Source of the DNA: Devosia sp. Root413D1 | GTDB taxonomy: Bacteria > Pseudomonadota > Alphaproteobacteria > Rhizobiales > Devosiaceae | Direction: 5' to 3' | Length of the DNA stretch: 64,000 bases | Assembly (NCBI RefSeq): GCF_001425235.1 | Contig: NZ_LMEA01000008.1 | Span: 186,001-250,000 of the forward strand | Shown here: one piece after another, positions 33,129-56,473 of the stretch | Numbering within the stretch: the first letter of the stretch is position 1 | How the letters are laid out: each line of letters begins with the position of its first letter | Position numbers and translations under genes: made by a program | The notes under the pieces: generated by a model | What the model was told of the DNA's origin: nothing | The model's input: the letters and a program-made list of their open reading frames with translations, nothing else | Database searches by the model: none

Positions 33129-33147
33129 GCCCAGGTTAGGGTCGGAA

Positions 33148-33173
33148 CGGCGCCGGCGGAATCGCCGACGCCG
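33148..33173 (-). terminator. Hairpin between binding protein and ATPase genes
   Basis: CGGCGCCGGCG and CGCCGACGCCG pair with one mismatch around GAAT. In ABC operons such intergenic stems stabilise the upstream binding-protein mRNA and partly terminate. No U-tract. Confidence 0.45.
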
Positions 33174-33191
33174 ATGGCTCGAATAGCCGTG

Positions 33192-34816: not shown

Positions 34817-34919
34817 GGAGCATCTTCGTCGTTTCTCTGAAACGGCGAAGATGCTCCAAGGTTTTGATTTGTCACACTTTTCGAACCGGAAAAGTCTGCA
34901 ACTCTCCCGAAAGTGCTCT
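34817..34919 (+). repeat. Composite dispersed repeat, copy 1
   Basis: A 45-base hairpin (GGAGCATCTTCG ... CGAAGATGCTCC around GTTTCTCTGAAAC) is followed by a spacer and by CGAACCGGAAAAGTCTGCAA and ...GAAAGTGCTCT. A second copy with the same order, about 101 bp, lies inverted at 55699-55799. It fills the gap between the RidA stop and the creatininase-like start. Confidence 0.85.
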
Positions 34920-34933
34920 GCGAAAGACTTGAG

Positions 34934-35728
34934 ATGACCTACCGCAAGATCTGGTGGAATGACTTTTCCGCCTTCGAATTCCATGGCATCGACCCCAACA
35001 AAACCATCGCAGTGTTCCCCACTGCCGCAGTCGAACAGCATGGGCCGCATCTGCCGGTTGGCACCGACACCATCATCAACCAGGGGCACCTCGATCTCCT
35101 GGTCGAGCGCGCACCCCATGATCTCGACATCCGTATCCTGCCGGTGCAGGCGATCGGCAAATCCAACGAGCACATCTGGCAGACCGGGACGCTGAGCCAC
35201 ACCGCGACCAACCTGATCGATGCCTGGACGCAGATCGGGCTCGAGATCGCCCGTGCTGGCGTCAAGAAGGTGGTCTTCGTCAACTCGCATGGCGGGAACG
35301 TCTCGATCCTCGACATCGTGGCGCGCGAACTCCGGGTGCGCGCCGGCATGTTGGCGGTGAAGACCGGCTGGAGCCAGTACTGGCCCAAGGACATCTATTC
35401 CGACATCGAGAACCGCCACGGCATCCACGGCGGCGACAGCGAAACCTCCGTGGTGATGCACCTCAGGCCCGAGCTGGTGAACCGCGACAAGCTGCAGGAT
35501 TACCCCTCGGTCGCGGCGCGCGACGAGCAGGCCTACAAATACATGCGGCCCACGGGAGCAACGAGCTACGCCTGGATCGCCAGCGATATCAACCCGCTCG
35601 GCGCGGCCGGCGACGCGCACCTGGCGACGCCCGACAAGGGGCGGATCACCGTCGAGACGGCAGTCGGCAGTTTCATCGAGCTGCTGCGCGAGGTGGAGCG
35701 CTACCCGCTGCCGGGGACGCGGGGGTAG
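34934..35728 (+). CDS. Creatininase family amidohydrolase
   Basis: From the ATG at 34934 the protein has 264 residues. It carries the creatininase metal-binding pattern: FPTAAVEQHGPHLPVGTDT with Glu and His, KSNEHIWQTGTLSH, VFVNSHGGNVSIL and HGIHGGDSETSVVM with the late Glu. The family includes creatininase, a formylamino-pyrimidine deformylase and the mycofactocin enzyme MftE, so the substrate cannot be read from sequence. It lies between two nitrogen-compound gene sets and may belong to either. The Imm11-like gene follows 24 bp downstream. Confidence 0.9.
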   Translation: MTYRKIWWNDFSAFEFHGIDPNKTIAVFPTAAVEQHGPHLPVGTDTIINQGHLDLLVERAPHDLDIRILPVQAIGKSNEHIWQTGTLSHTATNLIDAWTQIGLEIARAGVKKVVFVNSHGGNVSILDIVARELRVRAGMLAVKTGWSQYWPKDIYSDIENRHGIHGGDSETSVVMHLRPELVNRDKLQDYPSVAARDEQAYKYMRPTGATSYAWIASDINPLGAAGDAHLATPDKGRITVETAVGSFIELLREVERYPLPGTRG

Positions 35729-35752: not shown

Positions 35753-36304
35753 ATGTCCTTCTATCGACTGGGTTTCGACCACACTATCCAGCCGCAGTGG
35801 TTCTTGTCTGAGCCGACCGATGAGGCTGGCCAAGCGATCGATCCCAGGGCATTAACGGAGGGGCAATCCTACATAGGACCGAGGCCGCGTAAGCTCACGG
35901 TTCTGCAGCAGGGGTTGGAGTTGGACTTCAGTTTCGGGCCATTCGACATGCCCGTCGTACGATGCAGAATTGGTGACGCACTGGAAGAGCTGTGCGGTCC
36001 GAGCATCGAGCGCTTTCCAGTTCACATAGCCGGTGTGCCTGGGTTCGAGGTGCTGAACGTTACGAGTGCGCTAGATTGCTTCGACTATGCAAACTCCGTC
36101 TACACCTTGTGGCCAGAAGGCGGTGATCGACCCGAAAAGGTGGGCGAGCTGCGAATGGTGCTAGAGTTGCGCATCGATCCAGAACGCGTTGGGAATGCTC
36201 ACCTGTTCAGAGTTGACGGTTGGCCGATTGCGCTGATCGCGTCCTCCTTCTTGAAGGAAGTGCTTGAAGGGACCGCGACCGGCCTGACCTTTACGCCGGT
36301 GTAG
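35753..36304 (+). CDS. Imm11 (DUF1629) family protein, orphan immunity-type gene
   Basis: The 183-residue protein has the C-terminal pattern of the Imm11/MXAN_0049 family: FPVHIAGVPGFEVLNVTSAL, DCFDYANSVYTLWPEG, GELRMVLELRIDPERVG, then HLFRVDGWPIALIASSFLKE and TGLTFTPV at the end. Family members are immunity proteins beside polymorphic toxins. No toxin, secretion or Rhs-type gene is in this window. Its base composition looks less GC-rich and its codon use more mixed than that of its neighbours, which hints at recent transfer. It sits between the creatininase-like and ergothionase-like genes on the same strand. Confidence 0.72.
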   Translation: MSFYRLGFDHTIQPQWFLSEPTDEAGQAIDPRALTEGQSYIGPRPRKLTVLQQGLELDFSFGPFDMPVVRCRIGDALEELCGPSIERFPVHIAGVPGFEVLNVTSALDCFDYANSVYTLWPEGGDRPEKVGELRMVLELRIDPERVGNAHLFRVDGWPIALIASSFLKEVLEGTATGLTFTPV

Positions 36305-36356: not shown

Positions 36357-37910
36357 ATGCATCACTTTCAGACCCAGTCCGATACTCTTTCACTCGACGG
36401 CAAGCCCATGAGTTTTGCGAGTCTGGCGCGGGTCGGCGCACGAGCGGTTTCGCTCGCGGCCGACGCCGCCGCGATGGCGCGGGTCGATGTCGCCCGCAAG
36501 GTGGTCGAGGACAAGATCGCGCGCGGCGAGCCGGTGTATGGCGCCAATACCGGCGTCGGCGCCATGAAGGATGTCGAGTGGTCGCCCGAGGAGCTCGAAA
36601 CGTTCAACCTCGGGCTGGTGCGGGCGCATCATTTCGGCACTGGCGCGCCGTTCCCCAGTTCGGTGGTGCGGAGCGCCATGGCGATCCGCGTCAATACCGC
36701 ATTGACCGGCCGCGTCGGTTGTTCGCGCGCGCTGGTCGACGCCTACCTGGCGCTGCTCGATAAGGACGTGGTGCCGGTGGTGCGGCGTACCGGCTCGATC
36801 GGCACCGCCGATATCGGGTTGATGGGCCAGATCGGCGCCGTACTGACCGGCGTCGGCGAGGCGGTGTACCAGAACCGGCGCATGTCGGCCGAAGCGGCGC
36901 TGGCCGAAGCGGGGCTCGTGCCCTGCCGCATGGCGCCGCGCGACAGCCTCGCATCGATCAGCGTCAACGCCGTGGGCTTTGCCGCCGCCGCCGAGGCGGT
37001 GCGCTCGGCCGCTTCGGCGATGCGCATGCTGCTCGCCACCGGCCTCACCACTGCCGGTGCGCTCGGCGCATCGCGCGACCCGTGGAAGGCCGTGGCGCAT
37101 GTGGGGACCGAGCGCGAGGCCGAGATCGGCGCCTGGCTCTATCACAACGCCATGGGCTGGGACTGGCCGAACGCCACGCATGTGCAGGACCCGCTGTCGC
37201 TGCGCATGATGGCGCAGGTGTTCGGCTCTGGCTTCGATACTCTGCTGGTCGCCGGCCGCACCGTGCTCGCCGCCACCGGCCGCACCGATGACAACCCGGT
37301 AGTGGTCGACGGACAGGTGCTGACCTCAGGCGGCTCCCTGCCGCTCGACGTGACCATCTACCTGCAGACGGCGCAGCTGGCGCTGGCGCATGCGGCGCGC
37401 AACTCGTTCAACCGTTGCGTGCTGCTGTCGAACGGCGCCCGGCGCGATCTGCCGATCAACCTGGTGCCGCGCGGCGCCATCGCCACCGGCTTTGGCCCGA
37501 TCATCAAGCTGGCGGGCGAACTCTTCGCGCGCGCCCTGTCGATGGCGATGCCGGTCTCGGCGCAATCGCTGGTTGTCGCCGCCGGGCTCGAGGACGAGGT
37601 GTCGTTCCTGCCGCTGGTGGTCGAGCGATTCGAGCGGCAGGTGCGGGCGCTGAAGCGTCTGGCGGCCCTAGAGGGCCTGCTCGCCGCGCAGGCGATGGAC
37701 ATTCACGGCGACCGTCCGAGCGGTGTGCCCGCGATGATCTACGACAAGGTCAGGCAGCACGCCGCCTTCTACGTGGTGGACCGGCCACTTTCTGCGGAAG
37801 TCGAAATCATTGAAAGCGATCTGGGTTCGGAACAGAGCATGGCGGAACTGATTTCCCACGCGCCCATTCCTGCACTGGACGAGTTTTTCGCGCTGGGCCC
37901 CGTCGCGTAG
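36357..37910 (+). CDS. Ergothionase-like aromatic amino acid lyase without MIO triad
   Basis: The 517-residue protein is a homologue of histidine ammonia-lyase: VYGANTGVGAMKD matches the HAL Tyr loop, and TGRTDDNPVVVDGQVLTSGG matches its middle region. In HAL the motif GSVGASGDLAPL forms the MIO cofactor from Ala-Ser-Gly. Here it reads GSIGTADIGLMGQ, with Thr150-Ala151-Asp152 in place of the triad, so MIO cannot form. Ergothionase is a member of this superfamily known to act without MIO, because trimethylamine is already a good leaving group; it makes thiourocanate and trimethylamine from ergothioneine. The neighbours supply the other pathway steps. It is very unlikely to be a working histidine lyase. 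Confidence 0.82.
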   Translation: MHHFQTQSDTLSLDGKPMSFASLARVGARAVSLAADAAAMARVDVARKVVEDKIARGEPVYGANTGVGAMKDVEWSPEELETFNLGLVRAHHFGTGAPFPSSVVRSAMAIRVNTALTGRVGCSRALVDAYLALLDKDVVPVVRRTGSIGTADIGLMGQIGAVLTGVGEAVYQNRRMSAEAALAEAGLVPCRMAPRDSLASISVNAVGFAAAAEAVRSAASAMRMLLATGLTTAGALGASRDPWKAVAHVGTEREAEIGAWLYHNAMGWDWPNATHVQDPLSLRMMAQVFGSGFDTLLVAGRTVLAATGRTDDNPVVVDGQVLTSGGSLPLDVTIYLQTAQLALAHAARNSFNRCVLLSNGARRDLPINLVPRGAIATGFGPIIKLAGELFARALSMAMPVSAQSLVVAAGLEDEVSFLPLVVERFERQVRALKRLAALEGLLAAQAMDIHGDRPSGVPAMIYDKVRQHAAFYVVDRPLSAEVEIIESDLGSEQSMAELISHAPIPALDEFFALGPVA

Positions 37911-38003
37911 CATGCCGGAGTATGACTTTTCCTTGGCGCCCGTATAGGTTTGGCGCCAATTCCGGCCCAGGGACTGCACGGCCGGAACAATAAGGAGACC
38001 ATC

Positions 38004-38912
38004 ATGCTTTCGAAGAAACTGCTCGGCGCTGCTGTCGCGCTGGCCTTCACGGTGACCGCTGCGAATGCCCAGGTCGTCGTGTCGTCGAAGATCGATACCG
38101 AAGGTGGCTTGCTCGGCAACATCATCAGCCAGGTGCTGCAGGCCAATGGCGTCGCCGTGACCGAGAAGATCCAGCTCGGCGGCACGCCCGTCGTGCGCCA
38201 GGCGATCACCGCCGGCGAGATCGACATCTATCCAGAATATACCGGCAACGCCGCGTTCTTCTTCGAGAAGGCCGACGACCCGCTGTGGAACGACGCCGCC
38301 AAGGCCTATGCCGAGGCGAAGAAACTCGACTACGACGCCAACAAGATCGTCTGGCTGTCCCCCGCTCCTGCCAACAACACCTGGGCAGTGGCCGTCCGCA
38401 AGGATGTCGCCGATGCCAACAAGCTCGCGACCTTCAGTGAGCTCGGCGCCTATATCGCCGGCGGCGGCAACATCAAGCTGGCCGCCTCGGCCGAGTTCGT
38501 CTCGTCCCCGGCCGCCTTGCCGAAGTTCCAGGAAGTCTACGGCTTCACTCTGAAGCCCGACCAGCTGGTGACCCTCTCCGGTGGTGACACCGCGGCGACC
38601 ATCGCTGCCGCTGCGCAGCAGACCAACGGCGTCAACGCCGCCATGGTCTACGGCACCGACGGCGGCATCGCTCCCTCGGGTCTGGTGGTGATGACCGACG
38701 ACAAGGGCGTGCAGCCGGTCTACGAGCCGGCCCCGATCATCCGCGAGGCCGTGCTGCAGGCCAATCCGCAGATCGAAGAGCTGCTGAAGCCGGTATTCGC
38801 CAAGCTCGACCTGGCGACGCTGCAGACGCTCAACGGCCGCATCCAGGTCGGTGGCGAAGCCGCCAAGGACGTCGCCATCGACTGGCTGAAGACCAACGGC
38901 TTCCTGAAGTAA
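38004..38912 (+). CDS. Quaternary amine ABC transporter binding protein (OsmF/YehZ-like)
   Basis: The 302-residue protein starts at the ATG after TAAGGAGA, with signal sequence LLGAAVALAFTVTAANAQ. It has the OpuAC-like fold of betaine-binding proteins: SKIDTEGGLLGNIISQVLQ, AGEIDIYPEYTGNAAFFF and LSPAPANNTWAVAVRKD, with aromatic residues able to cage a trimethylammonium group. Lengths and order of the next three genes match E. coli yehZYXW. In this cluster the likely ligand is ergothioneine or a related betaine (inference). A hairpin terminator follows, suggesting the binding protein is made in excess. Confidence 0.88.
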   Translation: MLSKKLLGAAVALAFTVTAANAQVVVSSKIDTEGGLLGNIISQVLQANGVAVTEKIQLGGTPVVRQAITAGEIDIYPEYTGNAAFFFEKADDPLWNDAAKAYAEAKKLDYDANKIVWLSPAPANNTWAVAVRKDVADANKLATFSELGAYIAGGGNIKLAASAEFVSSPAALPKFQEVYGFTLKPDQLVTLSGGDTAATIAAAAQQTNGVNAAMVYGTDGGIAPSGLVVMTDDKGVQPVYEPAPIIREAVLQANPQIEELLKPVFAKLDLATLQTLNGRIQVGGEAAKDVAIDWLKTNGFLK

Positions 38913-38937
38913 GCTGCCGCACGGTCAGTGCATTTTG

Positions 38938-38972
38938 GGGGTGGGCAGGACGACTGCCCACCCCTAGTGTTT
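38938..38972 (+). terminator. Terminator-like hairpin after the binding protein gene
   Basis: GGGGTGGGCA and TGCCCACCCC form a ten-pair stem with a seven-base loop, followed by TAGTGTTTT. It lies 26 bases after the stop. Partial termination here would raise binding protein over permease. Confidence 0.65.
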
Positions 38973-39005
38973 TCGGCATGACGCGCTTCGGCAATGACCA
39001 CCGCC

Positions 39006-39085
39006 TGTCATCCCTGCGAAAGCAGGGACCCATCGCCCAGCCCGCGCTGGCTGCGAGTTGGGTCCCTGCTTTCGCAGGGATGACA
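39006..39085. repeat. Type C inverted repeat
   Basis: Arms 39006-39031 and 39060-39085 are perfect 26-bp reverse complements (TGTCATCCCTGCGAAAGCAG begins the left arm) around 28 bp. It lies 20 bases before the permease GTG, after the terminator-like hairpin, and belongs to the family at 27798. Confidence 0.9.
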
Positions 39086-39105
39086 TCGAGTATGGAGCGA
39101 GACCG

Positions 39106-40293
39106 GTGACCGACGCTGCGATCGCCGCACCGACACGAAGCTTCGCCGTCGATAAGCTCGGCGTGCTGATCGCCGCGCTCGCCGCCATCGCCGCCTTCCT
39201 GCCCTTCGCCGCGTTCCGCGCCAACCGCATCGTGCTCGGGGAGGCCAAGGGTCTCTTCGCCGCGCTCCCCGGCTGGGAAGCTGCGGCCCTCGCCATCGTG
39301 CTGGCCGCCGGCATCGGCATCGCGCTGTTCCGGACGCCGACGCTGTGGCGGCTGGCCACCAGCCTCGTCGTGCTGGCGCTGCTGTTCGTCGCCATCGGCC
39401 ACGCCGGCACCTTCCTCACGCCACCGGGTGACAAGATCGCCCGCGTCTCGCCCGGCGCCGGTTTCTGGCTCTTGATCTTTGCCTTCGCTTTGCTGGCCGC
39501 CGACGCCATAGCGCGGCTGAAGCTGAAGCCATGGACGCGCATCGGCGTGCTGGCGGCGGTGGCCCTGTTCTTCGCCGTGCTGCTCGGCTCGGGCACGCTG
39601 AACGATCTCTCGATCCTCCGCGAATATGCCAATCGCGGCGATACCTTCTGGCGTGAGGCGCAAACGCATCTGGCGCTGGCGCTGGGTTCGCTCGCCGCGG
39701 CAACGGTGGCCGGCATCCCGATCGGCATTCTCTGCCATCGCAGCGATGCCTGGCGCGCGCCGGTGCTGAACGTGCTGAACGCCATCCAGACCATCCCGTC
39801 GATCGCGCTGTTTGGCCTCTTGATCGCGCCGCTCGCCTGGGTGGCGGCCAACATCCCGGGCGCCTCGGCCGTCGGCATCTCCGGCATCGGCGCGGCGCCG
39901 GCCATGGTGGCGCTGTTCGCCTATTCGCTGCTGCCGGTGGTCGCCAACACTGTGGTCGGCCTCGATGGCGTGCCGCCCGCCGCCAATGACGCGGCCAAGG
40001 GCATGGGCATGACCGACTGGCAGCGGCTGGTGACCGTCGAGTTTCCGCTGGCCTTTCCGGTGATCCTCACCGGCATCCGCATCGTGCTGGTGCAGAATAT
40101 CGGCCTCGCCACCATTGCCGCGCTGATCGGTGGCGGCGGTTTTGGCGTCTTCGTGTTCCAGGGCGTCGGGCAGACGGCGATGGACCTGGTGCTGCTCGGC
40201 GCCGTACCCACCGTGGCGCTCGCCTTCGCCGCGGCTGTCGTGCTGGACGCAATTGTCGAAATGGTCTCACCCAAGGATACGCGCCGTGATTGA
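39106..40293 (+). CDS. Quaternary amine ABC permease, long form (YehY-like)
   Basis: From the GTG at 39106 (GGAGCGAG four bases upstream) the protein has 395 residues. The N-terminal half adds about four hydrophobic helices. The C-terminal half is a standard betaine-type BPD permease with LNVLNAIQTIPSIALFGLLI, GLDGVPPAANDAAKGMGMTD as coupling loop and NIGLATIAALIGGGGFGVFV. E. coli YehY has the same two-part build and a similar length. The end overlaps the ATPase start by eight bases. The frame upstream of the GTG runs through a palindromic repeat and is not used. Confidence 0.9.
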   Translation: MTDAAIAAPTRSFAVDKLGVLIAALAAIAAFLPFAAFRANRIVLGEAKGLFAALPGWEAAALAIVLAAGIGIALFRTPTLWRLATSLVVLALLFVAIGHAGTFLTPPGDKIARVSPGAGFWLLIFAFALLAADAIARLKLKPWTRIGVLAAVALFFAVLLGSGTLNDLSILREYANRGDTFWREAQTHLALALGSLAAATVAGIPIGILCHRSDAWRAPVLNVLNAIQTIPSIALFGLLIAPLAWVAANIPGASAVGISGIGAAPAMVALFAYSLLPVVANTVVGLDGVPPAANDAAKGMGMTDWQRLVTVEFPLAFPVILTGIRIVLVQNIGLATIAALIGGGGFGVFVFQGVGQTAMDLVLLGAVPTVALAFAAAVVLDAIVEMVSPKDTRRD

Positions 40294-41224
40294 GATCGAA
40301 GCCCTCACCAAGGACTATCTCGAGCTGACCGTGGTCGACCACGTCGGCCTCACCGTCGCCGACGGCGAGATCGCGGTGATCGTCGGCACCTCCGGGTCAG
40401 GCAAGACCACGCTGTTGCGGATGATCAACCGATTGATCGAGCCGACCTCGGGCACGGTGAAGATCGATGGCCAGGATACCCGGGATGTGCCGGCCTTCGA
40501 GCTCAGGCGCCGCATCGGCTACGCCATCCAGGGGCACGGGCTGTTCCCGCACCGCACCGTCGGGCAGAACATTGCCACGGTCCCGACCCTGCTCGGCTGG
40601 GACAAGGGCAAGATCGCGGCGCGGGTCGATGAACTGCTGGAACTGTTTCAGCTGCCGGCGGCGGAGTTTCGCGACCGTATGCCGAGCGAACTGTCCGGCG
40701 GCCAGCAGCAGCGCGTTGGGGTGGCACGGGCCCTCGCCGCCGAGCCGAAACTGCTGCTGATGGACGAACCGTTCGGCGCGCTCGACCCGATCATCCGCGC
40801 CAAGGCGCAATCGGACCTGCTCGCCATCCAGAAGCGCTTCGGCACCACCATCGTCTTGGTGACGCACGACATGGAGGAGGCGATCCATCTCGGTTCGCGC
40901 ATCGCCGTGATGGATAAGGGTAAGCTCCTGCAATACGCGCCGCCGGACGAGATCATCGCCCGGCCCGCAACGCCGTTCGTTGCCGAACTGATCGGCACCG
41001 GCGAGCGGCCGTTCCGGCTGCTGTCGCTGGGCAAGGTCCGCGACCTGGTCGAGTCCGGCCCGGCACAGGGCGAGCCGATCTCCGCCGACGCCTCACTGCG
41101 CGACGCCTATGCCGAGTGCCTGTGGACCGGCCGCGAGATGCTGCCGGTGGTCGATGCCGATGGCGCCAGCATCGGCCGCATCCGTCGCGACGACATCGCC
41201 CACAAGGCCGAGCGCCCGCAATGA
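40286..41224 (+). CDS. Quaternary amine ABC ATPase (YehX-like)
   Basis: The 312-residue ATPase starts at a GTG overlapping the permease end. It has Walker A in [40 protein letters not shown] before the signature SGGQQQRVGVARALA, Walker B in LLLMDEPFGALDP and VLVTHDMEEAIHLG. The C-terminal tail (ISADASLRDAYAECLW, then VVDADGASIGRIRRDDI) is one CBS-like half as in YehX and OpuCA. It energises import together with the flanking permeases and overlaps the next gene by four bases. Confidence 0.94.
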   Translation: MIEIEALTKDYLELTVVDHVGLTVADGEIAVIVGTSGSGKTTLLRMINRLIEPTSGTVKIDGQDTRDVPAFELRRRIGYAIQGHGLFPHRTVGQNIATVPTLLGWDKGKIAARVDELLELFQLPAAEFRDRMPSELSGGQQQRVGVARALAAEPKLLLMDEPFGALDPIIRAKAQSDLLAIQKRFGTTIVLVTHDMEEAIHLGSRIAVMDKGKLLQYAPPDEIIARPATPFVAELIGTGERPFRLLSLGKVRDLVESGPAQGEPISADASLRDAYAECLWTGREMLPVVDADGASIGRIRRDDIAHKAERPQ

Positions 41225-41970
41225 AGCCGGGGCTGATCATCCGGCTGGTGGTTCTGGCGCTGCTGGTGGCGTTCATCGTCACGCCGGAGAGCTTCGCCTG
41301 GGTGTTCCAGCCGCTGACCAAGAACGGCCAGCCGGCGATCTACGTGCAGAACTCGCTGCTCAACCTCACCGTAAGCCACCTGACCATCGTCGCCATCGCC
41401 ACCATCGCCTCGACGTTGCTGGCGGTGGGTCTCGCCATTCTCGTCACCCGGCCATTCGGCGCCGAATTTCTGCCGTTGAGCCGCTCGCTCGCCAATATCG
41501 GCCAGACCTTTCCGCCGGTGGCGGTGCTGGCACTGGCCGTGCCGGTACTGGGCTTCGGCACCGCGCCGACGCTGGTGGCGCTGTTCCTCTACGGCCTGCT
41601 GCCGATCTTCGAGAACGCCCTCACCGGCCTCACCACCTTGCCGCCCGCCGTGACCGAAGCGGCCCGCGGCGTCGGGATGACCGACCGGCAGCGGCTGCTG
41701 GGCGTGGAACTGCCGCTGGCAACGCCGGTGATCCTCGCCGGCATCCGGCTCTCGGTAGTGATCTCGGTGGCGACGGCCACTATCGGCTCGACCGTCGCGG
41801 CCTCGACGCTGGGCGAGGTGATCATCGCCGGGCTGCTCAGCAATAACCTCGCCTTCATCGCCCAGGGCGGGCTGGTGGTCGGCGTGATGGCGGTTCTGAT
41901 CTATGATGCGCTTTCGGCGCTCGAGCGGGCACTGATGGCCCGCACCGGCCAGCGCCGGCAGCACGCGTAG
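41221..41970 (+). CDS. Quaternary amine ABC permease, short form (YehW-like)
   Basis: The 249-residue permease starts at ATG overlapping the ATPase stop (ATGA). Six helices are visible, with SLANIGQTFPPVAVLALAVP, the coupling loop LTTLPPAVTEAARGVGMTDR and the segment VVISVATATIGSTVAASTLG. Length and position match YehW. The hydantoinase-like gene starts eight bases after its stop, which ties importer and catabolic enzymes into one transcript. Confidence 0.92.
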   Translation: MKPGLIIRLVVLALLVAFIVTPESFAWVFQPLTKNGQPAIYVQNSLLNLTVSHLTIVAIATIASTLLAVGLAILVTRPFGAEFLPLSRSLANIGQTFPPVAVLALAVPVLGFGTAPTLVALFLYGLLPIFENALTGLTTLPPAVTEAARGVGMTDRQRLLGVELPLATPVILAGIRLSVVISVATATIGSTVAASTLGEVIIAGLLSNNLAFIAQGGLVVGVMAVLIYDALSALERALMARTGQRRQHA

Positions 41971-41978
41971 GAGCCAAC

Positions 41979-43322
41979 ATGTCCGATTTCGATCTCGTCC
42001 TCGCCGGCACGGTGGTGCTGCCATCCATGGTGGTCGAGGATGGCTATGTGGCGGTGCGCGACGGCAAGGTGGTGCATGTCGGCGAGGGGACGCCGCCGCA
42101 CGCGCATGAGCGGCATTTGCTCGGCAAAGCGCTGATCCTGCCCGGTGCCATCGACGCGCAGACCCACTCCTTGAGCCAGAGAGGTCAGGAAGATTTCATC
42201 TGGTCGACCCGCTCGGCCGCGGCCGGCGGGGTGACCACCATTGTCGACATGCCCTATGACGAGGGCAACCTCGTCTGCTCCGCCGAGGCGGTGCGGATCA
42301 AGGTGGCGCATGCCGAGCCGCAGGCCCGGGTGGATTTCGCGCTCTATGGCACCATCAACCCGGAGGACGGTGCGAGCCGCATCGCCGAGCAGGCGGCAGC
42401 CGGCGTTGCGGCGTTCAAGTTCTCGACCTTCGGCACTGACCCGGTGCGCTTCCCGCGCATCTCGCCGCCGCTCCTCGCCGAGGCCTTCGCCGAGGTGGCG
42501 AAGACCGGGTTGACGGCGGGCGTCCACAACGAGGACGACGAGAGCGTCCGCGCCGCCATGGCCAAGGTGAAGGCCTTGGGCATCACCGACTGGCGGGCGC
42601 ATGGCCTGAGCCGGCCGCCGCTGACCGAATTGCTGGCGACGCTGCAGATCTACGAGACCGGGGCGCAAACCGGGTGCGATGCTCATGTGGTGCACTGCTC
42701 GCTGAGCCGAGGCTATGACATCGCGGCCGACTATCGGGCGCACGGCTTCGGCGCCACCATCGAGTGCTGCATCCACTACCTGACGCTGGACGAGGAAAAC
42801 GACGTCCGCCGGCTGGGCGGCAAGGCCAAGATCAACCCGCCGATCCGCCCGCGCGCCGAGGTGGAAGCGCTGTGGCGCCAGGTGGCGGCCGGCAATGTGA
42901 CGCTGGTCTCGACCGATCACGTCAGCTGGTCGGAAGATCGGAAGACCAACCCGGACATGCTGGCCAATTCCTCCGGCGTGCCGGGCCTCGAGGCGATGGT
43001 GCCGCTGTTCGTCAAGGGCGCGCTGGAGCGCGGCGTGTCGCTGACCTGGGCGGCAAAGCTGATGGCGGCGAACCCGGCCAGGCACTTCCGGCTGGGGCAG
43101 AAAGGCGCGCTCGAGGCCGGCAAGGATGCCGACATCACCGTGCTGGTAGATCGACCGGTGGTCTATGACGCGGCAAGATCCGGGCACAATGTGGTGGGGT
43201 GGTCGCCGTACAACGGCATCGAGCTGCCATGGACGGTGGCCGGCACCTGGCTGCGCGGGCAGCAGGTGTTTGACGGAACCACGGTGGCCGAACCGGGGGC
43301 AGGGCGGTGGGTGCGGCCGTGA
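41979..43322 (+). CDS. Hydantoinase/allantoinase-like cyclic amidohydrolase
   Basis: The 447-residue protein follows the dihydropyrimidinase/allantoinase pattern: AGTVVLPSMVVEDGYVAVRD, the carboxylated Lys in GVAAFKFSTFG, VHNEDDESV, AHVVHCSLSRG and VTLVSTDHVSWSED. The first metal motif, normally DxHxH, reads IDAQTHSLS, so the first His is Gln. In the ergothioneine route this would open hydantoin-5-propionate to N-carbamoyl-glutamate. It starts eight bases after the importer and lies before the carbamoylase that would use its product. Confidence 0.87.
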   Translation: MSDFDLVLAGTVVLPSMVVEDGYVAVRDGKVVHVGEGTPPHAHERHLLGKALILPGAIDAQTHSLSQRGQEDFIWSTRSAAAGGVTTIVDMPYDEGNLVCSAEAVRIKVAHAEPQARVDFALYGTINPEDGASRIAEQAAAGVAAFKFSTFGTDPVRFPRISPPLLAEAFAEVAKTGLTAGVHNEDDESVRAAMAKVKALGITDWRAHGLSRPPLTELLATLQIYETGAQTGCDAHVVHCSLSRGYDIAADYRAHGFGATIECCIHYLTLDEENDVRRLGGKAKINPPIRPRAEVEALWRQVAAGNVTLVSTDHVSWSEDRKTNPDMLANSSGVPGLEAMVPLFVKGALERGVSLTWAAKLMAANPARHFRLGQKGALEAGKDADITVLVDRPVVYDAARSGHNVVGWSPYNGIELPWTVAGTWLRGQQVFDGTTVAEPGAGRWVRP

Positions 43323-43339
43323 GGATCGAGCACTTTGCC

Positions 43340-43473
43340 ACCCCCACCCAGCTTCGCTACGCGCCAACGGCGCTAGCTTCGCTACCCTCCCCACAAGGGG
43401 GAGGGAGAGGCCGGAGCCGCCCTATCGGCGAGCGTCTCCCTCCCCCTTGTGGGAAGGGATCAAGGGTGGGGGT
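43340..43473. repeat. Type A-variant inverted repeat between hydantoinase and carbamoylase genes
   Basis: Outer arms ACCCCCACCC/GGGTGGGGGT and inner arms around CCTCCCCACAAGGGGGAGGG enclose 25 bases. The left side carries an extra 36-base insert (GCTTCGCTACGCGCC...) absent from the 1411 and 3506 copies but present, diverged, at 46029 and 47889. It fills the 172-bp gap. Confidence 0.85.
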
Positions 43474-43494
43474 GCCCCACGCTCGGTGCCACCA

Positions 43495-44757
43495 ATGACC
43501 CGCAATCTCCCCACCCAGGAAGCCCGGATCGCCGAGGATATCGCGACCCTCGCCGAGATCACCGAACCGGGTCGCCCTTACACCCGCCGCGCCTTCACCC
43601 CGATGTTCCTCCGCGGCCGCGAGTGGCTCGTCCGGCGCTTCGAAGCCGCGGGCCTCGAGACCCGCATCGACGCCTCCGGCAACCTGATCGGGCGGCGGCG
43701 CGGCCGCGCCGGCAGGGGCACCATCATGCTCGGTTCACACTCCGACACCGTGCCCGATGGCGGTCGGTTCGACGGCATTGCCGGAGTATCGGCAGCGCTG
43801 GAAGTAGCGCGGGCGCTGGCCGATCAAGGCGTACAGCTGCAGCATGACCTGGAGATCGTCGATTTCCTCGCTGAGGAGGTGTCGATCTTCGGCGTTTCCT
43901 GCGTCGGCAGCCGCGGCATGGCCGGCGTACGGCCGGACAATTGGCTGGATCGCGAGGTCGACCGGTTCACTTTGCGCGAAGGGATCGCCGAGGTCGGCGG
44001 CAATCCTCAGAAAATCGAGAAGCGCGAGGACATCGCCGCCTTCCTCGAGCTGCATATCGAGCAGGGGCCGGTGCTGGAGGACGGACATCTCGATATCGGC
44101 GTGGTCACGGCGATAGCGGGGATCACGCGGATCGAACTGGTGGTGAACGGTCGCGCCGACCACGCCGGCACCACCCCGATGGGCTCGCGGCAGGATGCGC
44201 TGACCACCGCGGCACGGCTGGTGGTGGGGATCGAGGAACTGGGCACGCTGCTCAGCCAGGGCAAGTTCCATTTCGCCGCCACCGTCGGCGAGTTCTCCAT
44301 CGAACCTGGGGCGGCGAACGTCGTGCCATCCAGGGCGCGATTGCTGATCGATGCGCGGGCCGAGCGGCGCGAGGATATGGAGCGGTTCATCGCCGAGCTC
44401 ACGGTGCTGGTTAACGCCACGGCCGCCGCGACCGGGGTGGCGATAGAGCCGCCATTGACCATTTCCGACAATTTGCCAACGCCTTGCGACCCGTTCGTGC
44501 TTGATACGCTGGACGCGGCAGCCGTGGCCGTGGGGGCGCGCCATCGCCGCATGGCATCGGGCGCCGGGCACGACACGGCCTGGATGGCGCGGGTGACCAA
44601 GGCGGCGATGATCTTCATCCCCTGCCTCGGCGGCCGCAGCCATACGCCGGAAGAATATGCCGAAACGGCCGACGTGGCGCTGGGCGCCGCCGTGCTGCAG
44701 GAGGCGGTGAAGCGGTTGGATAGGGAATTAGTCGACCAAGATGGCAAGCGAGCTTGA
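43495..44757 (+). CDS. N-carbamoyl-L-amino acid hydrolase (M20/HyuC family)
   Basis: From the ATG at 43495 the protein has 420 residues. It has the dimetal M20 set: GSHSDTVPDGGRFDGIAGV, EIVDFLAEEVSIFGVSCVGS, LELHIEQGPVLED, ADHAGTTPMGSRQDAL, ASGAGHDTAWMARVTKAAM and LGGRSHTPEEYA. The family hydrolyses N-carbamoyl amino acids or allantoate. Following the hydantoinase-like enzyme, the likely substrate is N-carbamoyl-glutamate, giving glutamate, CO2 and ammonia. The frame extends far upstream through a repeat, but the family start is at 43495. Confidence 0.9.
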   Translation: MTRNLPTQEARIAEDIATLAEITEPGRPYTRRAFTPMFLRGREWLVRRFEAAGLETRIDASGNLIGRRRGRAGRGTIMLGSHSDTVPDGGRFDGIAGVSAALEVARALADQGVQLQHDLEIVDFLAEEVSIFGVSCVGSRGMAGVRPDNWLDREVDRFTLREGIAEVGGNPQKIEKREDIAAFLELHIEQGPVLEDGHLDIGVVTAIAGITRIELVVNGRADHAGTTPMGSRQDALTTAARLVVGIEELGTLLSQGKFHFAATVGEFSIEPGAANVVPSRARLLIDARAERREDMERFIAELTVLVNATAAATGVAIEPPLTISDNLPTPCDPFVLDTLDAAAVAVGARHRRMASGAGHDTAWMARVTKAAMIFIPCLGGRSHTPEEYAETADVALGAAVLQEAVKRLDRELVDQDGKRA

Positions 44758-44767
44758 AACACCCCAC

Positions 44768-44857
44768 GGCGTCATTCCCGCGAAGGCGGGAAACCAGAGC
44801 CGCACGCTCGATGGCCGGTGGCTTCCCCTGGGTTCCCGCCTTCGCGGGAATGACGCC
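44768..44857. repeat. Type C inverted repeat
   Basis: GGCGTCATTCCCGCGAAGGC on the left pairs with GCCTTCGCGGGAATGACGCC on the right (about 25-bp arms) around some 36 bases. It occupies almost the whole gap between the carbamoylase stop and the DUF917 start. Confidence 0.88.
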
Positions 44858-44876
44858 GGCGGTAAGGTGATCCACC

Positions 44877-46004
44877 GTGGGTAGAATTCTGACCGAGAAG
44901 GATGTGGAAGCCGCGGTGAAAGGCGGTTCCGTCTATGCCGCCGGCGGCGGGGGTTGGGCCGATCATGGCCGGATGCTTGGGCTTGCGGCGGTGAGCGTCG
45001 GCAAGCCCGAGCTGGTCGATATCGAAGAGCTGGAGCCGCGCGACTGGGTGGCGACTGCGGCCGCGATCGGCGCACCGGCCTCGACCACACCATGGGAGAT
45101 GCGCGGCGTCGATTACGTCAAGGCCGTGAAGCTGCTCGAGAAGGCGCTGGGCGACAAGGTCCGCGGCCTGATGATCGGCCAGAACGGCAAGAGCTCGACC
45201 CTCAATGCCTGGCTGCCGAGCGCCATCCTCGGCACCAAGGTGGTCGACGCGGTGGGCGATATCCGCGCCCACCCGACCGGCGACATGGGTTCGATCGGCA
45301 TGGCCGGCAGCCCCAAGAAGATGATCCAGACCGCCGTGGGCGGCAATCGCGCCGAGAACCGCTACATCGAGCTGGTGGTCAAGGGCGCAACGGCCAAGAT
45401 CTCGCCGATCCTCCGTACCGCGGCCGATATGTCGGGTGGTTTCATCGCCTCCTGCCGCAACCCGCTGCGCGCCAAATATGTGCAGCGCAACGCGGCGCTT
45501 GGCGGCATCTCGCTGGCGCTGAGCCTCGGTGAGGCGATCATCGCGGCCGAGAAAAAGGGTGGCTCGGCGATAATCGACGCCATCGTCAAGGCGACCGGCG
45601 GCACCATCCTGGTGAAGGGCGCGGTGACGAAGAAGGATCTCGTCTACACCAAGGAGGCCTTCGATATCGGCCGCTTTGTGCTGGGCGAGGGCGACAAGGC
45701 CGTCACCATCCACACCATGAACGAATACATGGCGATCGACGATGCCGGCGGTAACCGGCTCGCTACCTTCCCCGATGTGATCGCCACGCTCGACGCGGCG
45801 GGCCAACCGCTGAGCGCCGGGCAGCTGCGCGAAGGCATGTTCGTCTTCGTGCTGCACGTGCCCAAGAAGGTCATCCCGCTCTCCTCCTCGGTGATCGACC
45901 CGGCGGTCTACCCGCCGGTAGAAAAGGCCATGGGGATCGAGCTGGCCAAGTACGCGCTCGACGGCGTGAAGCGGAAGAAGAAGGCTCGGAAGGGCTGGGC
46001 GTAG
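44877..46004 (+). CDS. DUF917 protein, thiohydantoin desulfurase family
   Basis: The 375-residue protein starts at a GTG (AAGGTG seven bases upstream) with ILTEKDVEAAVKGGSVYAAG. It continues with DUF917 sequences such as AIGAPASTTPWEMRG, LMIGQNGKSSTLNAWLPSA and DAVGDIRAHPTGDMGSIGMA. The DUF917 family (S-methyl thiohydantoin desulfurase domain) removes sulfur from 2-thiohydantoin-type rings. In ergothioneine breakdown this is the step from the thioxo-imidazolidinone propionate to hydantoin-5-propionate, releasing sulfide. It sits between the carbamoylase and the urocanase-like gene, exactly where the pathway needs it. Confidence 0.85.
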   Translation: MGRILTEKDVEAAVKGGSVYAAGGGGWADHGRMLGLAAVSVGKPELVDIEELEPRDWVATAAAIGAPASTTPWEMRGVDYVKAVKLLEKALGDKVRGLMIGQNGKSSTLNAWLPSAILGTKVVDAVGDIRAHPTGDMGSIGMAGSPKKMIQTAVGGNRAENRYIELVVKGATAKISPILRTAADMSGGFIASCRNPLRAKYVQRNAALGGISLALSLGEAIIAAEKKGGSAIIDAIVKATGGTILVKGAVTKKDLVYTKEAFDIGRFVLGEGDKAVTIHTMNEYMAIDDAGGNRLATFPDVIATLDAAGQPLSAGQLREGMFVFVLHVPKKVIPLSSSVIDPAVYPPVEKAMGIELAKYALDGVKRKKKARKGWA

Positions 46005-46028
46005 GCCCAATCTCGAGGTTGTGGCTCC

Positions 46029-46159
46029 ACCCCACCCAGCTCGCTAGGCCGCGGGCGGCCAAGCTACGCTACCCTCCCCATCGAGGGGAGGGAGACGAAG
46101 GAACCGAAGCATCAGTCGGGTCTCCCTCCCACTTGTGGGGAGGGATCAAGGGTGGGGGT
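46029..46159. repeat. Type A-variant inverted repeat before the urocanase-like gene
   Basis: Outer arms ACCCCACCC/GGGTGGGGGT and inner arms CCCTCCCCATCGAGGGGAGG/CCTCCCACTTGTGGGGAGGG enclose about 25 bases, with the nested left-side insert (TCGCTAGGCCGCGGGCGGCC). It fills the 193-bp gap and ends 39 bases before the start codon. Confidence 0.82.
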
Positions 46160-46197
46160 AGCCACACGCACCGGCGGGGCGATATTCTCCGCCCACC

Positions 46198-47865
46198 ATG
46201 CCAAAACCCAATCCCCGCCACCCGAATTTCCCCATTCCCTCCGGTCCGGTTCTGCGCGCCAAAGGCTGGCGGCAGGAGGCGTTGCTGCGGCTGCTCGAGA
46301 ACGTGCTGGCCGTCGGTGAGGACCCCGAAAAGCTGATCGTCTATGCCGCGCTCGGCAAGGCCGCGCGGAACGGGGCGGCGCATCGGCAGATTGTCGAGGC
46401 GTTGACCACGATGGACGAGGATCAGACCCTGGTCATCCAGTCGGGCAAGCCGATCGGGCTGCTGAAGACCCATGCGCAGGCGCCACTGGTGATCATGGCG
46501 AATTGCAACATCGTCGGGCAATGGGCCAAGGCCGAGGTGTTCTACGAGCTCGAGAAAAAGGGCTTGATCGCCTGGGGCGGACTGACCGCCGGGGCGTGGC
46601 AGTATATCGGCAGCCAGGGCGTCATCCAGGGCACCTACGAGATCTTCATGCGCATCGCCGAGAAGCGCTTCGGCGGTTCGCTCGCCGGGCGTTTCATTCT
46701 CACCGCCGGCATGGGCGGCATGGGTGGCGCGCAGCCGCTGGCCGGGCGCATGGCCGGCGCGGCGATCCTCGATGCCGATGTCGACCCGGCGCGCGCCGAG
46801 CGCCGCAAGGAGATCGGCTATCTTGAGGAGATCGCGCCGAACCTTGATGCGGCGCTCGAAATGATCGCCGCGGCGGTGCGCGACAAGCGGGCGCTGTCGG
46901 TGGGGCTGGTCGCCAATGCGGCCGAGGTCTATCCGGAAATCCTCCGGCGCGGCATCATCCCCGACATCGTCACCGACCAGACCAGCGCGCACGATCTCGT
47001 CTACGGCTACGTCCCCAAGGGCATGAGCCTAGACGAAGTGCGGCGGTTGCGGGTCGACGGGCAGGGCCAACTTATGGCGGCGAGCCGCGCTTCGATCGCC
47101 GACCATGTGCGGGCCATGCTGGGGTTCCAGGCGGCCGGTTCGGAAGTGTTCGACAATGGCAACCTGATCCGCACCCAGGCCAAGCAGGCCGGCGTCGAGA
47201 ACGCCTTCGATATCCCGATCTTCACCGAGGCCTATCTGAGACCGCTATTCGCCCGCGCCATCGGCCCGTTCCGCTGGATGGCGCTGAGCGGGGAAGCCTC
47301 GGATATCGCGCGCATCGACGATCTGGTGCTCGAGATGTTCCCCGACAACAAGATCGTCACCAACTGGATCCGGCTGGCCCGGCAGTACGTGCCGTTCGAA
47401 GGGCTGCCGGCGCGCATCGCCTGGCTGGGGCATGGCGAACGGACCGCGCTGGCCCTGGCAGCGAACGCGCTGGTGCGGAACGGCGAGCTGAAAGCGCCGG
47501 TGGCGTTCTCGCGTGACCATCTCGATGCCGGGGCGATGGCCCACCCCAACATCATGACCGAGAACATGAAGGACGGCTCCGACGCCATAGCCGACTGGCC
47601 GCTGCTCGATGCCATGCTGCTCACCGCCTCAATGGCCGACCTGGTGGTGATCCACTCGGGCGGCGGCGGCTATGCCGGCTACATGACCTCTGCCGGCGTG
47701 ACGCTGGTGGCGGATGGGACCGAGGCAGGCGACGAGAGGCTGTCGCACGCGCTGACCAATGACACCTCACTCGGCGTGATGCGCTATGCCGACGCCGGGT
47801 ATGAGGAGGCGGTGGATGAGGCGGCGGTCAAGGGGATCGGGTGGTTTGATTTGAGGGGGAGCTGA
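46198..47865 (+). CDS. Urocanase homologue, probable thiourocanate hydratase
   Basis: The 555-residue protein aligns with HutU over its length: LVIQSGKPIGLLKTHAQAP, AGMGGMGGAQPLAGRMAGAA for NAD binding, IGPFRWMALSGEASDI and MKDGSDAIADWPLLDAML. Positions normally fixed in urocanase differ: the Cys in LPARICWLG (Cys410 of the Pseudomonas enzyme) is Ala408 here (LPARIAWLGHG), RDHLD-C/S-GS reads RDHLDAGAMAHP, and HHGGGVG reads HSGGGGYAG. The changes suit a bulkier 2-thio substrate. With no hutI, hutG or hutF nearby, hydration of thiourocanate is more likely than of urocanate. Confidence 0.83.
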   Translation: MPKPNPRHPNFPIPSGPVLRAKGWRQEALLRLLENVLAVGEDPEKLIVYAALGKAARNGAAHRQIVEALTTMDEDQTLVIQSGKPIGLLKTHAQAPLVIMANCNIVGQWAKAEVFYELEKKGLIAWGGLTAGAWQYIGSQGVIQGTYEIFMRIAEKRFGGSLAGRFILTAGMGGMGGAQPLAGRMAGAAILDADVDPARAERRKEIGYLEEIAPNLDAALEMIAAAVRDKRALSVGLVANAAEVYPEILRRGIIPDIVTDQTSAHDLVYGYVPKGMSLDEVRRLRVDGQGQLMAASRASIADHVRAMLGFQAAGSEVFDNGNLIRTQAKQAGVENAFDIPIFTEAYLRPLFARAIGPFRWMALSGEASDIARIDDLVLEMFPDNKIVTNWIRLARQYVPFEGLPARIAWLGHGERTALALAANALVRNGELKAPVAFSRDHLDAGAMAHPNIMTENMKDGSDAIADWPLLDAMLLTASMADLVVIHSGGGGYAGYMTSAGVTLVADGTEAGDERLSHALTNDTSLGVMRYADAGYEEAVDEAAVKGIGWFDLRGS

Positions 47866-47888: not shown

Positions 47889-48022
47889 ACCCCACCCAGC
47901 TCCGCTAGGCGGCGGCGCCGCCTAGCTGCGCTGCCCTCCCCATCAAGGGGAGGGAGACGATAGAGCCGAAGCCGCAGTATGCGTCTCCCTCCCCCTTGTG
48001 GGGAGGGATCAAGGGTGGGGGT
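47889..48022. repeat. Type A-variant inverted repeat after the urocanase-like gene
   Basis: This is the same build as 46029-46159. The nested left-side insert contains a perfect 21-base palindrome at 47905-47925 (CTAGGCGGCG, G, CGCCGCCTAG). It lies between the convergent urocanase-like and yejA genes and could end both transcripts. Confidence 0.85.
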
Positions 48023-48046: not shown

Positions 48047-49888
48047 CTAGTTCTTCGCCGCCCCGGTCTTGGCCGCCTTGGCTTCGTCGTACCACCACAC
48101 CGTCGGGAAGCCGATTGAGAACTCCGGCAGGGTTTCGGGGTGGCTGAAGCGGTCCCAGCGGGCGATGCGCGACTTGCGCAGCGTGTAGGTGGGCACGGTG
48201 TAGTGGTGGGCCAGCAGCACGCGGTCGAGCGCCCGGGTGGCGGCGATCAGCGTTTCGCGGTCGTCGGCGAAGACGATCTTGTCGATCAGTGCGTCGACGC
48301 CCTTGTCGGAAATGCCGCCATAGTTGCGGCTGTCGTTCTGCGCCGCCGAGGCCGACCCCCAGAAATCGCGCTGCTCGTTGCCCGGGGAAAGCGACTGCGC
48401 CCAGCCGGTGTACGTCATATCGAAGTCGCGATTCTGCACGCGCTCTATGAATTGCGGGGAATCCACCGAGCGGATGGTGGCGTTGATGCCGAGCCGCTTG
48501 AGATTGGTCTGGAACGCCGTGGCGATCGGCTCGATGGTCGGCCCGTTGAGCAGGATCTCGAAGCTCACCGGCGTGCCGCTGGGATCGACCAGCTGGTTGC
48601 CGTTGAGGGTGTAGCCGGCTTTCGTGAGGATCTCGTTGGCGGTGCGCAGGCTCTGCCGGAGCTTGGTCGTATCGCCGTTGACCGGGTTCTTGTACTCGGT
48701 GGTGAACACCGATGTGGGGACGAGATCCTTGACCGAGTTGAGGATCTCCAGCTCCTCCCCCTGCGGCAGGCCGGAAGACGCGAACTCGGTGCCGTAAAAG
48801 AACGAGTTGATGCGGTCGTACTGGCCGAAGAAGCGCAGCTTGTCGAGCTCCTCGAAATCGAAGGCGTAGAGCATCGCTTCGCGCAGCGCTTCGTTCTGGA
48901 ACAGTGGTTTCCTGAGGTTCGGGACGAACCCGACCAGGATGCCCGAGCCGCGATAGGCGTTCTCGAACAACTCTTTGATCACCTTGCCTTCGGTGACGGC
49001 GGGGAAATCGTAGCCGCCCTGCCAGCGCAGCGCGAGGTTCTCGTCCCACCAGTCGAACTCGTCGCCCTTGAAGCCTTCGAACTCAGCGGTGGTGTCGAGG
49101 AAATACTCGTACTTGACGGTCTGGAAGTTGTTCTGACCGATGTTGAAGGGCTCCTTCAGGCCCCAGTAGTTGGGATCGCGCTCATAGGTGACCGAGGTGC
49201 CGGGGCTGAAGGCCGCCAATTTGTACGGGCCGGATCCCAACGGCGGCTCGAGGCCGGGCTTGGAGATGTCCCGCGGCTTGCCGTCGGGGCCGGCGCCCTC
49301 CCACCAGTGCTGGGGCAGGACGATCAACTGGCCCATGATGTTGGGCAGTTCGCGGTTGCCGCCCTTGTCGAAGGTGAAGGTCACTTCGCCGGGTGCGGTC
49401 ACTTCGGCTTTGGTGACGTTGGCGAAGTAGTTGGCCTGGCTGGGGTTCAGGGCGATGACCTTGTTGAAGGTCCACACCACGTCCTCGGCGGTAACCGGCT
49501 CACCGTCAGCCCACTTGGCACGCGGGTTCATCCGGAAGGTGACCGAGGAGAAATCGTCGGGGTAACTGAAGGCTTCGGCGAGGTTGCCGTACTGTGTGGA
49601 GTTCTCGTCGAGCGACGGCGTGGTCAGCGTCTCGAACACCAGCCCGATGCCGTCGGCGGGTTCGCCCTGTGGCAGGATCGGGTTGAAGGTGTCGAAGCCG
49701 CCCATCGAGCTGAGCCGCACCACGCCGCCCACCGGCGCATCCGGGTTCACGTAGTCGAATTTCTCGAAGCCCGCAGGGTATTTCGGCTCGCCGATCAGCG
49801 AACCGCCATGGTGCCAGACTTTCTCCTGGGCGATCGCTGGGCTGAACGCGAGGAGCGCGGCGAGGGTAAGGGCGGCTAGCTTTTGCAT
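48047..49888 (-). CDS. Peptide ABC transporter binding protein (YejA-like)
   Basis: The 613-residue product starts at ATG 49888 with signal sequence LAALTLAALLAFSPAIAQ. It has the SBP_bac_5 fold typical of YejA: WHHGGSLIGEPKYPAGFEKF, FDTFNPILPQGEPADGIGL, GSGPYKLAAFSPGTSVTYER, and GWAQSLSPGNEQRDFWGSAS near the end. YejA feeds peptides and related compounds such as microcin C to YejBEF. Usually yejA is first in the operon; here it is last, 67 bp after yejF. Confidence 0.92.
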   Translation of the reverse strand: MQKLAALTLAALLAFSPAIAQEKVWHHGGSLIGEPKYPAGFEKFDYVNPDAPVGGVVRLSSMGGFDTFNPILPQGEPADGIGLVFETLTTPSLDENSTQYGNLAEAFSYPDDFSSVTFRMNPRAKWADGEPVTAEDVVWTFNKVIALNPSQANYFANVTKAEVTAPGEVTFTFDKGGNRELPNIMGQLIVLPQHWWEGAGPDGKPRDISKPGLEPPLGSGPYKLAAFSPGTSVTYERDPNYWGLKEPFNIGQNNFQTVKYEYFLDTTAEFEGFKGDEFDWWDENLALRWQGGYDFPAVTEGKVIKELFENAYRGSGILVGFVPNLRKPLFQNEALREAMLYAFDFEELDKLRFFGQYDRINSFFYGTEFASSGLPQGEELEILNSVKDLVPTSVFTTEYKNPVNGDTTKLRQSLRTANEILTKAGYTLNGNQLVDPSGTPVSFEILLNGPTIEPIATAFQTNLKRLGINATIRSVDSPQFIERVQNRDFDMTYTGWAQSLSPGNEQRDFWGSASAAQNDSRNYGGISDKGVDALIDKIVFADDRETLIAATRALDRVLLAHHYTVPTYTLRKSRIARWDRFSHPETLPEFSIGFPTVWWYDEAKAAKTGAAKN

Positions 49889-49955
49889 GAAGGCCTCCAT
49901 TCGGGGGAGAACGTGTTGTCGGAGCTTAGCGTCAGGGGCGATTGCGTCAAAACTT

Positions 49956-55979: not shown

Positions 55980-56393
55980 ATGACCAAGCTCGCACTTGCC
56001 GCGACATTCGCGGTTGCCATGCTGACTTCGTTCTCTGCTATTCCTGCCAATGCCCAACCAAGGGATACATGCACCGCCGGCCCCCAGTGTCCCAGCCATG
56101 GGGGCGGTAGCGACCCCTATTGCGGCGACCAGCTCGGTGTGCTGAAGCGCGTGATGCCCGCCGAAGTGCTCGGCGTCGACCGCCACTACCGTGTCTGGAT
56201 CACCGAGTTCTGCACCTCCGAGACGTTGATGCGCTCTGACGGCAACGCCGCGTACCTGCGCACCGCCATCGCCAAGAACGATGTGCTCACTGACGTGCTG
56301 ACCGAGCGCGGCTTCCATGCCGACGACGTCTACGCGGTCAAGATGATGGGCGACGACACCATCAACCTCTACGTCCACGATTTCGGACGCTGA
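55980..56393 (+). CDS. Small exported protein, tandem family member 1
   Basis: The 137-residue product starts at ATG after AGGAG (seven-base spacing), with signal peptide LALAATFAVAMLTSFSAIPA cleaved after NAQ. A Cys- and Gly-rich stretch leads into a shared domain: CGDQLGVLKRVMPAEVLGVD, VWITEFC, AAYLRTAIAKNDVLTDVLTE, GFHADDVYAVKMMGDDTINL and YVHDFGR. Two Cys about 40 residues apart may pair. I do not recognise the domain. Three paralogues follow in the same direction. Confidence 0.82.
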   Translation: MTKLALAATFAVAMLTSFSAIPANAQPRDTCTAGPQCPSHGGGSDPYCGDQLGVLKRVMPAEVLGVDRHYRVWITEFCTSETLMRSDGNAAYLRTAIAKNDVLTDVLTERGFHADDVYAVKMMGDDTINLYVHDFGR

Positions 56394-56445
56394 TCCAACT
56401 CGGCTCTGATGATGCGGTACGGGTTGGCCCGTTCCTGTCGCCAAT

Positions 56446-56473
56446 CTGAACGGCGTCATCAGAGCCGGTTCAA
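56446..56473 (+). promoter_or_regulatory. Conserved 28-bp operator-like element, copy 2
   Basis: CTGAACG-N14-GGTTCAA, with ATCAG in the middle, as in copy 1. It lies 84 bp before the second family gene, within the gap 56394-56557. Confidence 0.7.

Follow-up and report, generated by a model that had tools for sequence, protein, structure and literature searches.

A probable ergothioneine catabolic operon with a YehZ/OsmF-type importer in Devosia sp. Root413D1

We analysed a window of 64,000 nucleotides from the 5.85 Mb genome of Devosia sp. Root413D1 (C8:186001-250000, C8 being contig NZ_LMEA01000008.1) and focused on a group of genes that appears to encode uptake and breakdown of ergothioneine. 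Nine genes, all of them open reading frames (ORFs) on the plus strand, fill positions 36357-47865. An earlier note, made from the letters alone, had listed the parts of a complete ergothioneine-to-glutamate cluster here, and every one of them was recovered in this interval from the ORFs and family models:

36357..37910, plus strand: ergothionase-type lyase, 517 aa; best Protein Data Bank (PDB) match 6s7j; triad of the 4-methylideneimidazole-5-one (MIO) cofactor absent
38004..38912, plus strand: periplasmic substrate-binding protein (SBP), YehZ/OsmF type; NF049931 OsmF; start re-examined
39106..40293, plus strand: ATP-binding cassette (ABC) permease 1; PF00528; GTG proposed as start
40286..41224, plus strand: ABC ATPase, ProV-like; PF00005; TIGR01186 at 283.3 bits, under the cut-off of 326.6
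41221..41970, plus strand: ABC permease 2; PF00528
41979..43322, plus strand: ErtD, hydantoin-5-propionate amidohydrolase; NF058538
43495..44757, plus strand: ErtE, N-carbamoyl-L-glutamate amidohydrolase; NF058540
44877..46004, plus strand: thiohydantoin desulfurase, S-Me-THD/DUF917 fold; NF058529
46198..47865, plus strand: thiourocanate hydratase, a urocanase homologue; NF058530

The start of ErtE was set at 43495 because its open frame, which runs from 43165, begins well ahead of the family match.

Assignments of the enzymes were tested against the curated equivalog cut-offs of NCBIfam, and the four enzymes downstream of the importer each passed a cut-off specific to the pathway, which bears out the hydantoinase, carbamoylase, DUF917 and urocanase-like roles first proposed for them. 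ErtD scored 770.5 bits with NF058538 (cut-off 600) and 367 of 650 with a second ErtD model, NF058539; ErtE scored 581.5 bits with NF058540 (cut-off 520), and higher still, 639.9 of 486, with the generic Zn-dependent hydrolase model NF009531. The desulfurase reached 589.7 bits with NF058529 (cut-off 440) and missed the S-methyl model NF058532 (278.4 of 450), and the hydratase reached 1021.8 bits with NF058530 (cut-off 930) and missed the S-methyl model NF058531 (728.3 of 880). These scores bear on the alternative of a modified ergothioneine as the true substrate, for example S-methyl-ergothioneine or ergothioneine sulfonate. The S-methyl sister families do score high, though under cut-off, and a pathway for ergothioneine sulfonate has reportedly been published, with citation for Agrobacterium radiobacter. 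Since the hydratase and desulfurase lie above the cut-offs of the ergothioneine models and well below those of the S-methyl ones, the S-methyl pathway was rejected; the sulfonate route would be expected to need no desulfurase. We regard a modified substrate as improbable.

The first gene encodes a homologue of histidine ammonia-lyase (HAL) whose best solved match, in a phmmer search of the PDB, was the ergothionase of Treponema denticola (6s7j, 184.1 bits, E 4.5e-53), and which fell far under the NCBIfam cut-off for hutH (220.5 of 539 bits). Its MIO region, GSIGTADI, is one residue shorter than the corresponding GSVGASGDL in the histidine ammonia-lyase encoded elsewhere in the genome, which keeps the ASG triad. 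In an alignment of 98 sequences (the window's own included, 95 distinct, 37-97% identical to the window lyase), the triad was lost through a one-residue deletion in 98 of 98, as it is in 6s7j. The columns of Y53, H83, R283 and E414, in the numbering of HAL, were likewise unchanged in all 98. The closest named relative found, at 97% identity, was from Devosia insulae (records very near the window may be excluded). Among the closest known ergothionases, those of T. denticola (6s7j, 6s7q) and Burkholderia sp. HME13, comparison was made with 6s7j: the two share the fold family, the deletion that removes the triad and a QDPLS motif, but are distant in sequence (184 bits in phmmer). As the note had it, each of the five activities thus has a candidate, four by equivalog models and the lyase by its 6s7j match and MIO-loop deletion.

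Conservation of the gene set, which had been suggested as a check, was examined in 80 named loci, the best 80 of 214 lyase relatives, each fetched with its lyase. They came mainly from Devosia and Rhizobium, with some from Salinarimonas, Pelagibacterium, Shinella and Neorhizobium. All five enzyme genes were present in 66; among the 14 remaining loci, some are truncated where a contig or locus ends and others are without some of the genes. Where the genes were present their order was lyase, [importer], ErtD, ErtE, desulfurase, hydratase; 28 loci have the SBP, and 26 have the full set of four importer genes. The cluster is not a chance assembly, because the order recurs and the five enzymes stand together in so many relatives. 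Five loci of Rhizobiaceae type (L072, L096, L100, L110, L111; 5/80) carry the lyase, with the other four enzymes absent from the fetched flanks. Rhizobium sp. SL42 is a named plasmid example of the pathway genes, under merely generic annotation. The hydratase was above cut-off in 29 of 397 genomes sampled from the organism's own order. In a phylum sample 6 of 398 were above cut-off, and the 26 matches listed were each from the same order, so that this sample informs little about breadth.

The importer has the gene set of the YehZ/OsmF type: the SBP is above the OsmF equivalog model NF049931 (498.8 bits, cut-off 400), PF00528 occurs twice and PF00005 once. Over aligned columns the SBP is 78.9% identical to 5teu, 77.2% to 4nd9 and 59.5% to 4wep, and its residues are the same as theirs at all twelve pocket columns compared. 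4wep is from E. coli, and 5teu and 4nd9 are presumably from Brucella and Agrobacterium; the E. coli YehZ system binds glycine betaine weakly. The window importer differs from these systems in lying inside an apparent ergothioneine operon, and this placement recurs. In our family sample of 136 genomes, lyase matches occurred in 69, and we kept 52, whose matches are at least 62% identical, the rest (26-32%) being apparently ordinary ammonia-lyases; the SBP was found in 90. In 48 of the 52 lyase-bearing genomes the SBP comes straight after the lyase, on the lyase's strand and at a distance of 43-233 nt. In the wider order we turned to 20 loci, chosen from the 29 genomes with a hydratase over cut-off. 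In 13 of these, 11 of them outside the organism's own family, the enzymes are directly preceded by importer genes; the 13 span at least four families, and the identity of their lyases falls as low as 46%. The lyase was seen ahead of the importer in 12 of the 13, the contig of the other (L179) starting inside the importer; one of the 13, L191, is without ErtD and ErtE. In the remaining 7 no importer lies directly before the enzymes, and one of these, G288, has the lyase next to the importer, with ErtD about 9 kb away. In G182 both lyase and importer occur, and the stretch fetched contains no enzymes. Hydratase and SBP also co-occur in the order sample (14/17 versus 52/280, Fisher p 9e-8), a value that ignores kinship and rests on counts taken by hand, on the assumption that the SBP search covered the first 297 of the 397 genomes, the 14 including unlinked SBPs.

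Based on these results, it appears that the nine genes form an operon for ergothioneine uptake and breakdown to glutamate, a reading to which we give a probability of roughly 0.87 on the strength of family models and synteny. The five-step bacterial catabolism of ergothioneine was reportedly described by Beliaeva, Leisinger and Seebeck in 2021 (ACS Chem Biol). We assign the cluster to that pathway because four curated cut-offs are passed and the lyase joins an ergothionase match to the MIO-loop deletion; all five activities have a matching family member here, and we found no enzyme difference from the known pathway. In the established reaction order, the YehZ-type importer would take up ergothioneine, a betaine, the MIO-less lyase would split it to trimethylamine and thiourocanate, and thiourocanate hydratase would convert the latter to thiohydantoin propionate. 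The DUF917-type desulfurase would then swap sulfur for oxygen with release of sulfide, ErtD would open the hydantoin to N-carbamoyl-glutamate, and ErtE would yield L-glutamate. The gain to the cell would be glutamate, ammonia and sulfide, plus trimethylamine. A profile search of the genome for EgtD-type PF10017 gave no match (the profile matched 2 of 14 control genomes, E. coli among them); therefore the ergothioneine would have to be external.

Several observations weigh against this reading, on the side of the enzymes as on that of the importer. No ergothionase model was among the NCBIfam matches of the lyase, which leaves it with no curated test, and for that reason it was judged by its solved relatives and MIO loop. 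Among those relatives the lead of the T. denticola enzyme is modest, just 184.1 versus 159.6 bits for HAL 1gkj. The hydratase also passes the broader hutU cut-off, at 682.9 of 375 bits. No route for trimethylamine or sulfide was found, the only model tried, TIGR03105, being under cut-off. In favour of a variant locus for histidine or methylhistidine utilisation, the lyase and hydratase belong to the HAL and urocanase superfamilies and the latter is a urocanase by hutU. The lyase, however, is not a HAL of the MIO type, the more specific thiourocanate model is passed with a far higher score than hutU, and a hydantoinase, a carbamoylase and a desulfurase stand where an imidazolonepropionase would be expected. 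A true histidine ammonia-lyase and a urocanase lie together at a separate locus on contig C7, and hutI, hutG and hutF were absent, as had been claimed, from the ten proteins and ten flanking ORFs to which the scan was confined. We therefore rejected histidine utilisation despite the hutU match, in agreement with the earlier note, and consider any variant of it highly improbable.

For the importer, the contrary evidence begins with its distribution. Forty-five further SBPs in the family sample are unlinked to a lyase and close to that of the window (64-92% identity), one of the unlinked SBPs (G472) being too near a contig end to judge. Loci of Rhizobium have the enzymes and no importer; the neighbours scanned at one of them (L058) were housekeeping genes, for example ubiB and ubiE, and one ORF without a family. 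Among the plasmid records searched, an SBP relative occurs in 171 (in Sinorhizobium, Rhizobium, Azospirillum, Paracoccus, Klebsiella, Escherichia and others) and a lyase relative in 3; SBP relatives of about 72-77% identity lie on replicons of Sinorhizobium and Ensifer among the matches listed. Three loci (L159, L160, L161) hold unlinked YehZ-type SBP genes for which the 13 kb fetched contained no permease or ATPase genes to match. An SBP subfamily devoted to ergothioneine was sought and not found, since linked and unlinked SBPs interleave: a 45-row tree (3 of 48 sequences left out for an internal stop or shortness) showed 8 changes between linked and unlinked states, at least 6 of them forced by supported branches, and a 75-row quick tree (5 of 79 with internal stops excluded) showed 18, at least 9 of them forced.

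The pocket was compared with that of EgtU, taking the SBP determinants given in PMC9732360. Columns were mapped through spacing and through alignments to AfProX/ProX and a related sensor protein, in place of a direct EgtU alignment. By mapped column, the window SBP keeps K242, I243, T274, N339, Y419 and Y443 of EgtU and has replacements at G244 (D), T275 (P), F293 (Y), T296 (N), Y337 (A) and Y341 (W), the last set adding to the evidence against ergothioneine as its ligand. With six of twelve compared columns replaced, among them G244 and the Y-to-F switch at F293, where it has D49 and Y97, the window SBP is not an EgtU. The two are alike in being SBPs of the OpuAC family, with six pocket columns in common, and differ in that EgtUBC (PMC9732360) is fused, where a separate SBP and two permeases occur here. 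An aromatic cage can still be formed in the window SBP, from the candidate residues Y97, N143, W145, Y234 and Y258, with a putative lip at K47-I48.

Lip residues 78-80 were compared between SBPs that stand beside the enzymes and those that do not. Of 160 SBPs, 17 were dropped as duplicates and 1 for unknown linkage; GTP or ATP stands at these positions in all 60 distinct linked sequences and in 51 of 82 distinct unlinked ones, and column 78 separates the two groups best among mature columns. Residue 78 is Gly in the window SBP, versus Thr, Ala and Ala in 4wep, 5teu and 4nd9. In a phylogeny-aware comparison column 78 ranked first of 174 by a small margin (3.67, the runner-up scoring 3.64); roughly 4 of the 12 pairs were informative, and the median p was 0.125. 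By itself this is not significant, and Gly is also found at column 78 of the ProX sequence 3mam, which we take to be a relative of the glycine-betaine-binding AfProX, so that the column is no more than a lead. Residue 78 maps to G273 of EgtU, which lies near the thione sulfur according to PMC9732360.

These data must be set against the alternative that the enzymes degrade ergothioneine while the importer, of YehZYXW type, takes up betaines in general, handling mainly other quaternary amines and present in the operon by happenstance. The score above the OsmF cut-off, the abundance of unlinked relatives, the interleaving on both trees and the loss of half of the compared EgtU columns would all fit such an importer. 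Its position and orientation before the enzymes are nonetheless constant in at least four families, adjacency of lyase and importer persists with a lyase of 37% identity (L212) and where no enzymes lie in the stretch fetched (L206), and the [GA]TP lip is universal only among linked SBPs. A general betaine importer is accordingly possible, if on balance doubtful. That the importer handles ergothioneine we infer from its conserved position. To call it the cluster's own importer, as the earlier note did, is too strong: the same kind also occurs without the enzymes, the two are intermixed on trees, and the pocket is not EgtU-like.

The importer probably belonged to an ancestral ergothioneine operon, because so fixed a place is hard to reach by repeated insertion. 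In four loci with unlinked SBPs (L154, L156, L163, L170), genes upstream of the importer match those that precede the lyase in 11 linked loci (81-95% identity among the matches listed), as expected if the enzymes had been lost in place; gain in place may also explain the pattern. An importer in another family (L193, genome G055) has an SBP 88% identical to that of the window and no enzymes in the 14 kb fetched, and this combination suggests horizontal transfer. We tentatively propose, at slightly under even odds, that YehZYXW/OsmF importers of Hyphomicrobiales are a second kind of ergothioneine importer with a pocket unlike that of EgtU; the operon would be ancestral, the enzymes lost in many lineages and the importer kept, perhaps for antioxidant use, with residue 78 small (Gly/Ala) beside the enzymes and drifting elsewhere. 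No paper joining YehZ with ergothioneine was found in a search that missed most subscription journals, and within the same scope the one match for OsmF and ergothioneine concerned nutrition in oral cancer; the novelty of the link is uncertain because of that scope.

Two intergenic elements lie within the operon:

38935..38967, plus strand: 14-pair hairpin in the gap between SBP and permease 1, from a consensus scan; possibly limits downstream expression
43371..43473, no strand assigned: dispersed palindromic intergenic repeat, copy inside the operon; further copies at 46055-46159 and 47917-48022

The consensus scan found 10 terminator-like sites in the region versus 5.4 expected by chance, and a promoter scan of the region gave nothing above chance. 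The palindromic repeat, of about 105 nt, has three copies in or just 3′ of the operon and others at 1412-1514 and 3506-3608; of 191 candidates 40 were scored, and the repeat has 69 matches in the genome, which frequently overlap in pairs at a single place. Upstream of the cluster are a creatininase-family gene (34913-35728, Pfam) and, on the opposite strand, an ABC importer with an NMT1/THI5-like SBP (31426-34193), which are possibly another nitrogen-compound unit. Between creatininase gene and lyase, a 183-aa ORF (35753-36304) with an Imm11-like C-terminal match was found in 1 of the 80 relative loci. Just downstream, a peptide-type ABC importer occupies 48047-53536 on the minus strand (double ATPase and permease by Pfam, SBP named from its translation), and positions 56097-57437 hold three repeats related to one another, of which 140 nt agree across all three and 300 nt between two, at spacings of 578 and 482 nt.

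The cluster is a genuine but ordinary example of a catabolic pathway already known and common in Devosia and Rhizobium, and its importer is less settled. The cluster mainly widens the range of that pathway, which now takes in a Devosia-like bacterium from soil and many of its relatives. YehZ-type SBPs are common, and their conserved place in ergothioneine operons makes a direct substrate proposal for an orphan importer family; if the importer does take up ergothioneine, the orphan YehZYXW family would gain a substrate.

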